Assembly: GCF_000739655.1 (NCBI RefSeq)
Contig: NZ_BATR01000094.1
Coordinates: 1 to 64,000 of the forward strand
Origin: Verrucomicrobium sp. BvORR106
GTDB lineage: Bacteria; Verrucomicrobiota; Verrucomicrobiia; Verrucomicrobiales; Verrucomicrobiaceae
Direction: 5' to 3'
DNA: 64,000 nucleotides
Shown here: piece after piece, positions 46,434 through 50,225 of the stretch
How positions within the stretch are numbered: position 1 is the stretch's first letter
Layout of the letters: every line of letters begins with the position of its first letter
Made by a program: the position numbers and the translations under genes
The notes under the pieces: model-generated
The model's database searches: none
What the model was told of the DNA's origin: nothing
The model's input: the letters and a program-made list of their open reading frames with translations, nothing else

Positions 46434-46459
46434 TTTGTACGGTATGTACAGGGTACAAA
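46434..46459 (+). promoter_or_regulatory. TGTAC-type dyad upstream of the stator-like operon
   Basis: TTTGTAC (46434-46440) and GTACAAA (46453-46459) form a 7-bp dyad with TATGTACA in the centre, so the TGTAC core appears three times within 26 bases, about 100 bases upstream of the operon's start codon. This looks like an operator for a dimeric regulator; the regulator is unknown. Confidence 0.45.
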
Positions 46460-46546
46460 CGGAGAGCTAAGGTCCCGCCGATGTGTGCCGCGTTCGTGGT
46501 CTCGCATTCGTCATAAATGTATCATTCGAAATTAACTGTTCATCCC

Positions 46547-46553
46547 AGGAGGT
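46547..46553 (+). promoter_or_regulatory. Strong ribosome binding site deciding a GTG start
   Basis: AGGAGGT, a full Shine-Dalgarno match, stands seven bases before the GTG at 46561. It settles the start of the ExbB-like protein; the open frame extends 78 bases further upstream. Confidence 0.9.
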
Positions 46554-46560
46554 CCCAAAC

Positions 46561-47967
46561 GTGAAGTTCAAGTGCCCATCATGTGACATGAGTCTGAAGG
46601 CCGAGCCGGAGTGGGCTGGCAAAGTGGTCCGTTGCCCCGGCTGCAATACAAAGCTGCAGATTCCTGAGAACATTGGTGGTGCACCCCCGCCTGCTGCCGA
46701 AGCGTCCGCTCCCTCTTTCAGCAGTGCCGCTCCTCTGCCAGACGCAGCCCCGCCGCCCATTGGTGGCGGCTTGGATAACTTCGTGCAGAAGCCTGACCGT
46801 CTTGGATGGAAGGAAAGCGATCCGACGAACCCGAATGGCTACCTGAGCTTTGCCATCGGCGTCGTGCTGACCATTGCGTGGTTCGGCATTGTGTATCCCT
46901 TCCAGGCTCCGGCTGCCAAGGCTGTGGCGGAGTACAGCTCCATGGAGACGATCGCGAACGTGTTCTTCAAGCACTTCCTGATCAGCTTCATCAACACGAT
47001 GTTCTTCTTCTGGGCGGCTGCCATTCTCTATCTCAAGCTCGGCAAGCTGAAGCATCAGCGTGAAGCGTTGTTCCTTGATGTGCTCCCGGCAGAACTGGGG
47101 CGCGAAATCAACGGCCAGAACGTTGGCAGCTTCATTGACCACCTCTACAACATGCCGACCCGTCTGCGTGACAGCTTGATGGTGAACCGCATTCGCAAGG
47201 CGCTGGAGCTCTTCGAAGTTCGCCAGAATACACCGGATGTCGGCTCCATGATGTCCAGCCAGTCCAGTATCGACGGTGCTCGTATCGGCGGCAGTTATAT
47301 CATGCTGAAGGCCTTCCTTTGGGCCATTCCGCTTATGGGTTTCATCGGTACCGTTATCGGTCTGTCCCACGCCATCGGCGGCATGAGCTTCGCCAACATG
47401 GATGACGTGAGCGCCATCGTGGGATCCATCAGTGCGGTGACGAGCGGTCTCGGCACGGCGTTCGATGCGACGCTGCTGGGCCTTGTGCTTGCCGTGTTCT
47501 TGAACTTCCCGATGAACGCCCTCGCCAAGAACGAGGACGAGATGCTCAACGAAATTGACGCCTTCTGCAACGAAGTGCTCCTGCCTCGTTTGAACGACGG
47601 CGCTGGTGCGGGTGGTGGCGATGTGGCGGCGATTGCTGATTCCGTGATGCGTGGCCTGGCCGGTGCTCAGAAGGAGTTCCTTGTGGATCTCAACGAGCTG
47701 TCCAAGCGGATGAACGAATACGCCGCCAATCTGGACAAACGCTCTGACGCCTTCCAACAGGTGGTCACCAAGGAATTCATCAACAACACCACCCAGATGC
47801 GCACGGAGATGCAGGAATCCCTCAAGGACTCCCTCAAAGTGGTTTCCCAGTACATGGGCGCGCTGGAGACGGGCGTTCGCGGCTTGAACACCGTGCTCAA
47901 AGAGCTGGGTGAGAAGCAGGTGATCGTCCAGCAGGTGAAGAAAAAGGGCTGGTTCGGCCGCGATTGA
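46561..47967 (+). CDS. Zinc-ribbon MotA/TolQ/ExbB-type proton channel protein
   Basis: A 468-residue membrane protein, first gene of a three-gene operon. GTG start VKFKCPSCD is set by AGGAGGT seven bases upstream. Residues 5-28 form a zinc ribbon (Cys5, Cys8, Cys25, Cys28; WAGKVVRCPGCNTKLQIP), then a proline-rich linker. Helices lie at about 95-114 (LSFAIGVVLTIAWFGIVYPF), 137-160, 246-274 (LKAFLWAIPLMGFIGTVIGL) and 284-322 (ISAVTSGLGTAFDATLLGLV). The last two match the ExbB/TolQ/MotA pore helices, including the threonine/alanine-rich face. A coiled tail with LAGAQKEFLVDLNELSKRMN ends the protein. A cytoplasmic zinc ribbon is not part of classical ExbB or TolQ. It likely forms the pore with one or both following proteins. 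Confidence 0.85.
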   Translation: MKFKCPSCDMSLKAEPEWAGKVVRCPGCNTKLQIPENIGGAPPPAAEASAPSFSSAAPLPDAAPPPIGGGLDNFVQKPDRLGWKESDPTNPNGYLSFAIGVVLTIAWFGIVYPFQAPAAKAVAEYSSMETIANVFFKHFLISFINTMFFFWAAAILYLKLGKLKHQREALFLDVLPAELGREINGQNVGSFIDHLYNMPTRLRDSLMVNRIRKALELFEVRQNTPDVGSMMSSQSSIDGARIGGSYIMLKAFLWAIPLMGFIGTVIGLSHAIGGMSFANMDDVSAIVGSISAVTSGLGTAFDATLLGLVLAVFLNFPMNALAKNEDEMLNEIDAFCNEVLLPRLNDGAGAGGGDVAAIADSVMRGLAGAQKEFLVDLNELSKRMNEYAANLDKRSDAFQQVVTKEFINNTTQMRTEMQESLKDSLKVVSQYMGALETGVRGLNTVLKELGEKQVIVQQVKKKGWFGRD

Positions 47968-48030
47968 TTTCTTTCCCTGTGCCCGTGCTGACATTCCCTT
48001 CGTGCATATTGAGCCGCTGATTGCTGATCC

Positions 48031-49032
48031 ATGAGCCGCCGCCGCCACAAGACTGAGGAGCTTCTCCTAATTCCCTTCCTGGACATTCTGTGTTCCCTGA
48101 TCGGGGTGCTGATCCTCATCATTGTGGTGCTGTGCGTGGCCCAGTCCCAGCAGACCAACGGCCGTACGCCAGAGGAGCTGGCGATGTCGAAGGAGTTCGT
48201 GGAACTCCAGAAGCAGCAAAAGCAGGACGTCAGCACGGAGACGCTCATTAAGGAAAGACTCGCCGCCCTGGAGAAGCTCAAGAAAGAGCTTCAAGAGAAG
48301 GAAGAGCGCTCGGCCAAGCTGCGCAAGCTGCTGAGCACCGGGGCGGACATTCAGAAGATGAATGAGGAACTGAGCCAGAACCTGATGAAGGAACTGGACA
48401 ACCTCCTCCTTGAAATCGAAGGCCTGACCAAGACACAGGCGGAGATGAAAAAGGAGATCGCCGCGCTCATGGATGAGCTGAAGAAGCTCCAGATTCCGCC
48501 GGACAAGAAGCCCCCGCCGGTGATGGTTCAGCCCGGTGGCTCCGGCTTGGCGAAGGGTGCCAAGGTCTTCTTTGTGGAAGCAGGCGGTGGCCGTATCATT
48601 CTCTATTGGGATGCCAAACAACGCACTCAGGTGAGTGCCGCGGCGGAGGTCATTGTGGCAGACGCCGCCTACAACCACTTCCTCAAGGAGGTGAAGAATG
48701 TGCCCAACTCCAAGATCATCTTCCTCATGCGTGATGATGGCACCGGTGCCTTCAACAACGCTGCAGGCTGGGCTCAGGCCACCTATGGCTATCAAGTGAC
48801 TCAGATCGGCAAGCTGCTCCTGCCGGGCCGTGGGGACGTGGATCTTCAGATGTTCAAGGATTTCCTCGGCACCCTGCCCCCACCGGCAGATGCCAAGCTG
48901 ATGCCACCTGCCGGGTCCACCCCGGCGGCTCCGCCAGCTGCTCCCAAGCCTGCCGCCGCGCCGGCCCCTGCCCCTGCAACGGCCGCCCCCGCCGCTGCTC
49001 CTGCTACCGCTCCCAAGCCGGCTGGTACCTAG
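48031..49032 (+). CDS. ExbD/MotB-like stator protein with long coiled coil, component 1
   Basis: A 333-residue protein with a single N-terminal helix, LLLIPFLDILCSLIGVLILI, holding Asp18 at the spot of the proton-carrying aspartate of ExbD/TolR/MotB. Residues about 55-160 are a continuous coiled coil (LEKLKKELQEKEERSAKLRK). A globular domain follows at about 180-290 (GAKVFFVEAGGGRIILYWDA, KIIFLMRDDGTGAFNNAAGW). An alanine/proline repeat tail ends it. It is much larger than ExbD (about 140 residues) and lacks the OmpA-type peptidoglycan-binding domain of MotB. 63 bases after the ExbB-like gene. Confidence 0.75.
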   Translation: MSRRRHKTEELLLIPFLDILCSLIGVLILIIVVLCVAQSQQTNGRTPEELAMSKEFVELQKQQKQDVSTETLIKERLAALEKLKKELQEKEERSAKLRKLLSTGADIQKMNEELSQNLMKELDNLLLEIEGLTKTQAEMKKEIAALMDELKKLQIPPDKKPPPVMVQPGGSGLAKGAKVFFVEAGGGRIILYWDAKQRTQVSAAAEVIVADAAYNHFLKEVKNVPNSKIIFLMRDDGTGAFNNAAGWAQATYGYQVTQIGKLLLPGRGDVDLQMFKDFLGTLPPPADAKLMPPAGSTPAAPPAAPKPAAAPAPAPATAAPAAAPATAPKPAGT

Positions 49033-49079
49033 TCCGGCCCCGGCAAGTCCCTAATTTTCAGCCTCAGCCCCTTACTGCC

Positions 49080-50225
49080 ATGGCCAAACGCAGAGAAGCT
49101 CATGACGAAGAATTGCCCTTCGTCGCCCTCATGGACACCATGACCAACGTGGTGGGCGTGCTGATCATCGTGCTCGTGATGATCGGTATCAGCCTTGCCC
49201 AGGCCGTGCGCAAGGTTCTCTCCGATCTGCCACCCGTCACTAAAGAACAGCTGGAAGAGCTGAAGAAGGTGGTGGTCAAGGATACTCCCAAGGAAGATCC
49301 CAAGAAGCTCGAAGAAGAGATGAAGGAGACTCAGCAGGCTCTTAAGAAAGCCACTGAAGAGCTCAAGACCATGGATCTTTCGACTACGAAGGACTCAGCC
49401 AAGCACATGGATTTGGACGAGCTCCGCAAGCAGCTTGAGGAGCGCAAGAAGGTGCGCGACACCAGCAAGGAGGACGTGGACAAGCTCCTGGCTGAACTGG
49501 ACCGGCTGAAAAAGGCCATCGATACCACTCCGCGCTATGTGCCCCCGCCCGCAACGGTGGTGAAGCTGCCCAACCCGCGTGAAATTCCAGAGAACGCCAC
49601 GGTGCAGCGGTTTATCGTCACCGGCGGCAAGGTGTATTACCTGAACGACATCGAGTTCATGAAATATATCGTGCAGGAGATTGAGAAGAATCAGAAGAGC
49701 CTCGTGTTCGGTGAGGTGCCGGTGAAAGACACCTTTGGCAACCCGGTTATGGAGAAGGTGCGCGGCAAGGACGTGCCCAAGATGAAGACCGTGTTCGACC
49801 AGAAGAAGATCGTGCAGCACTTCGTGAACTTACGGCTTCCGGTGCGCGATCTGAAGGTAGAGCTGGTGGAGGCGCCCAATGCCCCCCGTATGCCCATGCG
49901 CCTCACTCCCAATCCCCAAGGAGGTGAAAGCGTCGAGCAGTTCAAGAACCCGGCCTCCACGTATCAGCGTGCGGTCCGCAAGTTCAAGAGCGAGCCCAAC
50001 ACTGTGATGTGGTTCTACGTCTTCAAGGATTCGGTGGAAGCCTTCCTTGCTGCCCGTGACTATGCCGACACCGAAGGCGTGCCCGTGGTGTGGGAGCTCT
50101 ACGGCAACCCCTACTACCAGAGAAACGTGGCCGAGTATGAGGTGAACTTCACCCCGCCCAAGCCACAGCCGCCACCGCCTCCTGGGGCCGTGAAGATCGC
50201 TGCTCCAAAGATGACGGCGGACTAA
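49080..50225 (+). CDS. ExbD/MotB-like stator protein with long coiled coil, component 2
   Basis: A 381-residue protein with the same plan as its neighbour: N-terminal helix ELPFVALMDTMTNVVGVLII with Asp19 in the proton-carrier position, coiled coil at about 55-150 (LEEEMKETQQALKKATEELK), then a globular C-terminal domain from about 178 (VQRFIVTGGKVYYLNDIEFM) to 360, with WFYVFKDSVEAFLAARDYAD aligning to the FLMRDDGTGAFNNAAGWAQA segment of component 1. A short proline-rich tail follows. The two are probably distant paralogues acting as a heterodimer in one stator. 47 bases after component 1. Confidence 0.75.
   Translation: MAKRREAHDEELPFVALMDTMTNVVGVLIIVLVMIGISLAQAVRKVLSDLPPVTKEQLEELKKVVVKDTPKEDPKKLEEEMKETQQALKKATEELKTMDLSTTKDSAKHMDLDELRKQLEERKKVRDTSKEDVDKLLAELDRLKKAIDTTPRYVPPPATVVKLPNPREIPENATVQRFIVTGGKVYYLNDIEFMKYIVQEIEKNQKSLVFGEVPVKDTFGNPVMEKVRGKDVPKMKTVFDQKKIVQHFVNLRLPVRDLKVELVEAPNAPRMPMRLTPNPQGGESVEQFKNPASTYQRAVRKFKSEPNTVMWFYVFKDSVEAFLAARDYADTEGVPVVWELYGNPYYQRNVAEYEVNFTPPKPQPPPPPGAVKIAAPKMTAD

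Follow-up and report, generated by a model that had tools for sequence, protein, structure and literature searches.

What kind of machine is encoded by an operon that joins one channel-type protein to two different single-helix partners? The question is raised by three open reading frames, here called A, B1 and B2, that lie on the forward strand with spacers of 63 and 47 bases within the 64,000-nucleotide stretch of Verrucomicrobium sp. BvORR106 DNA analyzed here (the window). The coding region starts at 46561 and not at 46434 (Table 1). With a probability of roughly 0.7, we propose that the product of the operon is a single ion-driven rotary motor from the MotA/ExbB/TolQ superfamily, in which A forms the ring, B1 and B2 pair as a heterodimeric axle and the membrane parts of all three make up a co-adapted core.

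The A subunit is composed of a zinc ribbon, four transmembrane helices and a helical cytoplasmic tail. It starts with GTG here and with ATG (MKFKCP) in most orthologues, and is 96% identical to its counterpart in Verrucomicrobium sp. BvORR034; the source genome belongs to the Verrucomicrobiaceae. With 45.8 bits against PF01618 (MotA_ExbB; cut-off 22.9), A falls in the MotA/TolQ/ExbB proton channel superfamily, and B1 and B2 each supply the single-helix partner with a carrier aspartate. Asp18 of B1 and Asp19 of B2 occupy the equivalent place, seven residues ahead of a conserved glycine, and the two proteins are distant paralogues with about 25% identity. The open reading frames, the PF01618 match and the AlphaFold models thus bear out the earlier note, which had described a pore protein with a four-cysteine ribbon and two single-helix partners with an aspartate each. 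The long coiled coils and C-terminal domains that it had described are likewise present in the models, as helices spanning residues 47-153 of B1 and 55-148 of B2 (interrupted) and as alpha/beta C-termini. A scan for promoters and terminators gave nothing beyond chance.

Table 1. Features of the A, B1 and B2 operon; positions are counted from the first base of the window.
Feature	Position	Strand	Basis
A subunit, 468 aa	46561..47967	+	ORF; PF01618, 45.8 bits; in 64 of 68 family genomes
Zinc ribbon of A, Cys5/8/25/28	46573..46644	+	Cys invariant where read
A membrane part, residues 81-360	46801..47640	+	haplotype linkage map; fixed differences; PomA/TolQ alignment
A T264, T304	inside 46801..47640	+	alignment with PomA and TolQ
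A N145, haplotype-specific	46993-46995	+	fixed difference
A A303, haplotype-specific	47467-47469	+	fixed difference
A cytoplasmic helical tail, residues 361-468	47641..47964	+	linkage gap about 0; partly under the ZorA-like match
B1 subunit, 333 aa, single N-terminal TM helix	48031..49032	+	ORF
B1 Asp18	48082-48084	+	carrier position
B1 membrane part, residues 1-60	48031..48210	+	haplotype linkage map
B1 long helix/coiled coil, residues 47-153	48169..48489	+	AlphaFold model, DSSP
B1 TolR/ExbD-like alpha/beta domain, about 175-265	48553..48825	+	topology; Foldseek top match TolR 5by4
B2 subunit, 381 aa, single N-terminal TM helix	49080..50225	+	ORF
B2 Asp19, invariant	49134-49136	+	carrier position
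B2 V15, haplotype site	49122-49124	+	fixed difference
B2 membrane part, residues 1-60	49080..49259	+	haplotype linkage map
B2 C-terminal alpha/beta domain, about 170-350	49587..50129	+	AlphaFold model

When the three proteins were compared with Pfam, NCBIfam and PADLOC, A alone matched and the matches of the B proteins were coiled-coil noise; no PDB entry matched a profile of A1. HMM searches of the C-terminal domains against TolR and OmpA, which had been suggested as a check, left both B1 and B2 unmatched. PF02472 (ExbD/TolR) found neither protein at E<1, nor any match in the genome search or among 35 homologues, profile-profile comparison with the genome's own ExbD proteins (hhalign) stayed below 2% probability, and Pfam detected no OmpA-family peptidoglycan-binding domain in B1, B2 or 35 homologues. 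Membership of the plain TolQR systems, for want of an ExbD match by HMM or hhalign, and of the flagellar stators of MotB type, for want of an OmpA-family domain, was rejected. Although no HMM finds it, the outer domain of B1 appears to have a TolR-like topology in a single-chain AlphaFold model of moderate confidence (pLDDT 73): the predicted order bbb-a-b-a-b is that of the TolR/ExbD domain, and Foldseek against the PDB returned E. coli TolR (5by4) as the first match (E 0.014, probability 0.99). In the comparable model of B2 (pLDDT 70) TolR ranks only fifth, as a weak match (probability 0.41), and most matches are weak and integrase-like. The earlier claim that the short TolR fold is lacking is thereby weakened for B1, even though the HMM match named as its refutation did not turn up.

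The three genes are inherited as a set. Of 68 Verrucomicrobiaceae genomes, 64 encode all of A, B1 and B2 and the remaining four encode none of them, which agrees with the three-gene stator unit originally put forward, and 45 of the 47 good genomes of the family carry the trio. It is normally present in single copy (the A and B2 matches are sometimes in two pieces) and, wherever contigs allow, the genes are adjacent and in constant order. Their surroundings vary by genus. The neighbours, going by gene names read from the sequences, are presumably plsY-gpsA in Verrucomicrobium and close kin and ribB/nusB/ftsY in Prosthecobacter-like genomes; the only conserved gene families at 31 loci are A, B1 and B2 themselves. 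The near-universal presence, the single copy and the position beside housekeeping genes speak for a routine task at the envelope and not for mobile defence. In the majority of the family B2 is 513-525 aa long, against about 365-395 aa in Verrucomicrobium and a few other members; the longer relatives, of about 510-520 aa, carry an insertion in the outer C-terminal domain, and its presence does not follow the core haplotypes described below.

The carrier positions are less uniform than had been thought. Whereas B2 Asp19 is invariant in all 62 family sequences, residue 18 of B1 divides the 62 genomes into 40 with Asp and 22 with Ser, no genome having both, and outside the family the B1 site holds Ser, Cys, Ala or Asn. 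The proposal that both aspartates carry ions thus fails as a general rule. Moreover, the residue at B1-18 belongs to one of two haplotypes. The operon in the window represents haplotype Ia (B1-D18, B2-V15, A-N145, A-A303), and the other, Ib, has B1-S18, B2-D15, A-E145 and A-T303. Knowing B1-18 suffices to predict the other three sites in 62 of 62 genomes, without any mixing (A-145 is unread in two).

A linkage map, in which identity within minus identity between haplotypes was computed for all genome pairs in 20-residue windows, confines the excess within-haplotype identity to residues ~81-360 of A, 1-60 of B1 and 1-60 of B2. Elsewhere the excess falls to about zero: this holds for the zinc ribbon, for the cytoplasmic tail of A and for the outer parts of both B proteins. 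On the tree of the membrane parts the haplotype changes once, with 100% support; on trees of the outer parts it changes 13 times (B1 and B2 together), 11 times (B1), 14 times (B2) and 10 times (A tail), these trees being built on alignments of fast-evolving coiled coils and with many metagenome-assembled genomes (MAGs). Forcing the Ia outer parts into one clade was rejected (delta lnL 1525, p-AU 0.0004). All 11 independent switches on well-supported branches are concordant in the three proteins (p 0.001), as counted on the quick tree and, for B1 against B2, on the careful tree as well. Operons of opposite haplotype can share both site and neighbours: ribB is then 94-96% identical, and the operon proteins 63-71%. 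Between the co-switching segments lie the A tail, with about 300 bases, and the B1 body, with about 800, neither of which moves along. Inside each haplotype, the distances of membrane parts and outer domains correlate (r 0.88 and 0.90), as expected of two haplotypes that were transmitted side by side over a long time, with recombination between them in the remainder of the operon. This would amount to a trans-species polymorphism, with repeated transfer between species as the alternative.

Taken together, the sequences suggest that the parts outside the membrane recombine freely and that the core has been swapped at least eleven times. This argues for co-adaptation of the membrane helices of A, B1 and B2 as one unit, of which there are two incompatible versions. 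The simplest reason for three segments in three genes to switch together is that the ring and the helices of both B proteins fit and touch one another in one complex. Concerted switching is the best evidence presented here for a heteromeric motor, and would also fit a situation in which each B helix matches A on its own.

The zinc ribbon, cytoplasmic by topology, does not take part in these exchanges. All of 19 orthologues retain Cys5, 8, 25 and 28, as do all of the 62 family genomes in which the N-terminus was read, and the ribbon is independent of the core haplotype: as a part of the swapped module it was rejected, the identity gap being about 0 for residues 1-60 and 3 for residues 61-80. 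Only one other match to the ribbon, a weak one, occurs in the genome.

Some observations on the distribution of the haplotypes may be added. The titles of the records hint that engineered or sewage samples may be the more frequent source of Ser-type operons (L019, L023-L025, L027), and lakes and ponds that of Asp-type operons (L012-L018, L020-L022). In genome G269 (L060 and L156) the Ia operon is split, with A and B1 on one contig and an Ia-type B2 on another, where it adjoins unrelated genes. A phylum-wide link between a Glu in TM2 of A and the loss of the B1 aspartate (34 versus 52 loci, with L068 and L122 as exceptions) was set aside, as it comprises only three changes on the tree and is not significant by itself. 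Locus L122 has the Glu in TM2 together with an Asp in both B1 and B2.

In the mechanism that we propose, A would form the ring and B1 and B2 the heterodimeric axle, in a make-up that, by analogy, is likely A5:B1:B2. Ions would bind to B2 Asp19, and in Ia also to B1 Asp18, near Thr264 and Thr304 of A, and their flow would turn ring and axle against each other. The coiled coils would then pass this motion to the TolR-like outer domains, which would act on the cell envelope. The stoichiometry, the rotation, the proton coupling of Ia and the load at the envelope are what we infer beyond the observations, namely the three-gene unit, the positions of the aspartates, the two linked haplotypes and their repeated joint switching. 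More tentatively, and with less than even confidence, we picture a natural asymmetric motor with an obligate B1/B2 axle and two ancient trans-species core haplotypes, one with two aspartates and one with a single aspartate, that probably use different ions.

The last point can be developed into a refinement of the rotary-motor reading, in which the haplotypes are ion-selectivity versions, Ia for protons and Ib for sodium, with anchor and load kept. In an alignment that included TolQ, T264, A303 and T304 of A correspond to T158, T185 and T186 of PomA. In PomAB these three threonines bind Na+, and proton-driven MotAB has Ala at T158 and T185 (PMC10374538). Haplotype Ib thus reads T/T/T as PomA does and Ia T/A/T as TolQ does, which suggests a difference in coupling ion. 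The T/A/T pattern recurs in three ExbB/TolQ-type genes of the source genome, and the outer domains are untouched by the swap. Threonine is not diagnostic, however: the aligned site of ZorA is T/S, and ZorAB is described as proton-driven. Relatives in the phylum outside Ia are mostly T/T, whatever the state of their B1. We consider the sodium/proton division possible, though rather doubtful.

A homodimeric arrangement, in which B1 and B2 would constitute two separate motors sharing the A ring, has been discussed for AglRQ and AglRS, a system with two B proteins in which the dimer type of AglQ and AglS is unknown (PMC9389320). Such an arrangement would be served in Ia by the aspartate on both B1 and B2, yet in the 22 genomes in which B1 lacks it a B1-only motor would have no carrier. 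Across 64 genomes, furthermore, B1 and B2 never occur apart. We therefore regard two homodimeric motors as unlikely.

A Zorya-like defence motor is very improbable, even though ZorA is the best-scoring named subfamily for A and ZorA2 of PADLOC matches it with 37 bits over residues 250-447, tail included. No ZorC, ZorD, ZorE or other conserved partner was found in 31 loci, matches to ZorB are weak and cover only the transmembrane helix and coiled coil, and the trio belongs to nearly every good genome of the family, often beside gpsA/plsY or ribB/nusB/ftsY. Zorya membership, defined by ZorA and ZorB together with ZorC/D or ZorE, was rejected, and the earlier statement that the operon lacks both an OmpA domain and the Zorya partners stands. 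Least credible of all is that the haplotype pattern arose from chimeric assemblies, as the many MAGs might suggest, or from plain transfer of whole operons, since the mosaic also exists between 99%-complete genomes of few contigs (G188 versus G200 and G191), the intervening A tail and B1 body stay put when the membrane parts move, and none of 13 switches is mixed.

The rotary motor with a B1/B2 axle is not without relatives. Heterologous TolR-like pairs have already been reported in PVC bacteria, where tolQ-like genes occur with such a pair, a TPR gene and a vWA transducer, and where vWA proteins serve as axle in heterologous pairs (PMC12204202). These motors share the A superfamily and the presence of two different single-helix partners per operon; the trio differs in its zinc ribbon, its long coiled coils and its larger B2, and no TPR or vWA gene accompanies it as a conserved family at the 31 loci. 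The AglRQ/S gliding motor of Myxococcus also combines one MotA/TolQ-like subunit with two MotB/TolR-like subunits that each have an Asp, and differs in that its function, gliding, is known. We know of no zinc ribbon or long coiled coil in that system. With TolQ-TolR and ExbB-ExbD the trio has in common the channel family, the T/A/T pore residues of Ia and the predicted outer topology of B1, whereas its B1 and B2 are heterologous and unmatched to ExbD, and no TolA, TonB or Pal is conserved beside it. ZorAB resembles the trio in A, helical tail included, and in the long B helices, but the trio is without ZorC/D/E and an OmpA-like B domain. MotAB and PomAB share the four-helix A, the Asp on the B helix and the threonines aligned with PomA, and the trio is distinguished from them by the missing OmpA-like anchor, two different B proteins and the lack of conserved flagellar neighbours. 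The mBio 2025 survey of stator homologues mentions neither zinc nor heterodimers (PMC12505986), and in the part of the literature covered by our search we found no description of the zinc-ribbon trio or of motor-core haplotypes.

Across the phylum, 93 of 388 genomes encode a relative of A, mainly of three types, of which type I is the trio. Type II has an A of about 300 aa, a B1 with FQDI, a B2 with LLLDTMCN and, in several loci, a protein of about 1000 aa nearby; it is a second uncharacterized heteromeric motor and occurs alongside the trio in G188 and G200. The nearby protein (about 870-1040 aa at loci including L069, L071, L072, L075, L076 and L077) has one transmembrane helix near residue 320-370, and some type II loci also encode a small protein with a GYF-like appearance on visual inspection. 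At L084 (G118:C181) the carrier Asp of a type II B2 is replaced by Gly (DLLLGPMCN) with the B1 Asp kept, a mirror image of the Ser-type trio. Type III, with an A of about 500 aa, a short B1 without Asp and a short B2 with Asp, likely corresponds to the vWA/TPR motors of PMC12204202. At type III loci including L073, L074, L094, L099, L103, L111-L113 and L120 the B1 carrier site is Cys, Ala, Ser or Asn, and some loci have a protein of about 650-710 aa between A and B1. Multi-partner motors are also common in the source genome itself, to judge from tandem ExbD genes beside ExbB-type genes, three at G000:C43:46853-48442 and two at C166:8809-9622.

The axle of the well-studied 5:2 motors is a pair of identical helices, and paired B proteins, AglQ and AglS among them, may or may not form heterodimers. 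The Verrucomicrobiaceae provide a natural test that has been run many times, as the joint switching of three membrane segments, on at least eleven occasions, ties both B helices to one ring. With its single Asp, the axle of the Ser-type haplotype would be a natural variant by which the need for two alternating carboxylates in rotation becomes testable. The fixed differences between the haplotypes, which include one at an established Na+ site, provide a set of candidate residues for ion choice and for the fit of ring and axle.
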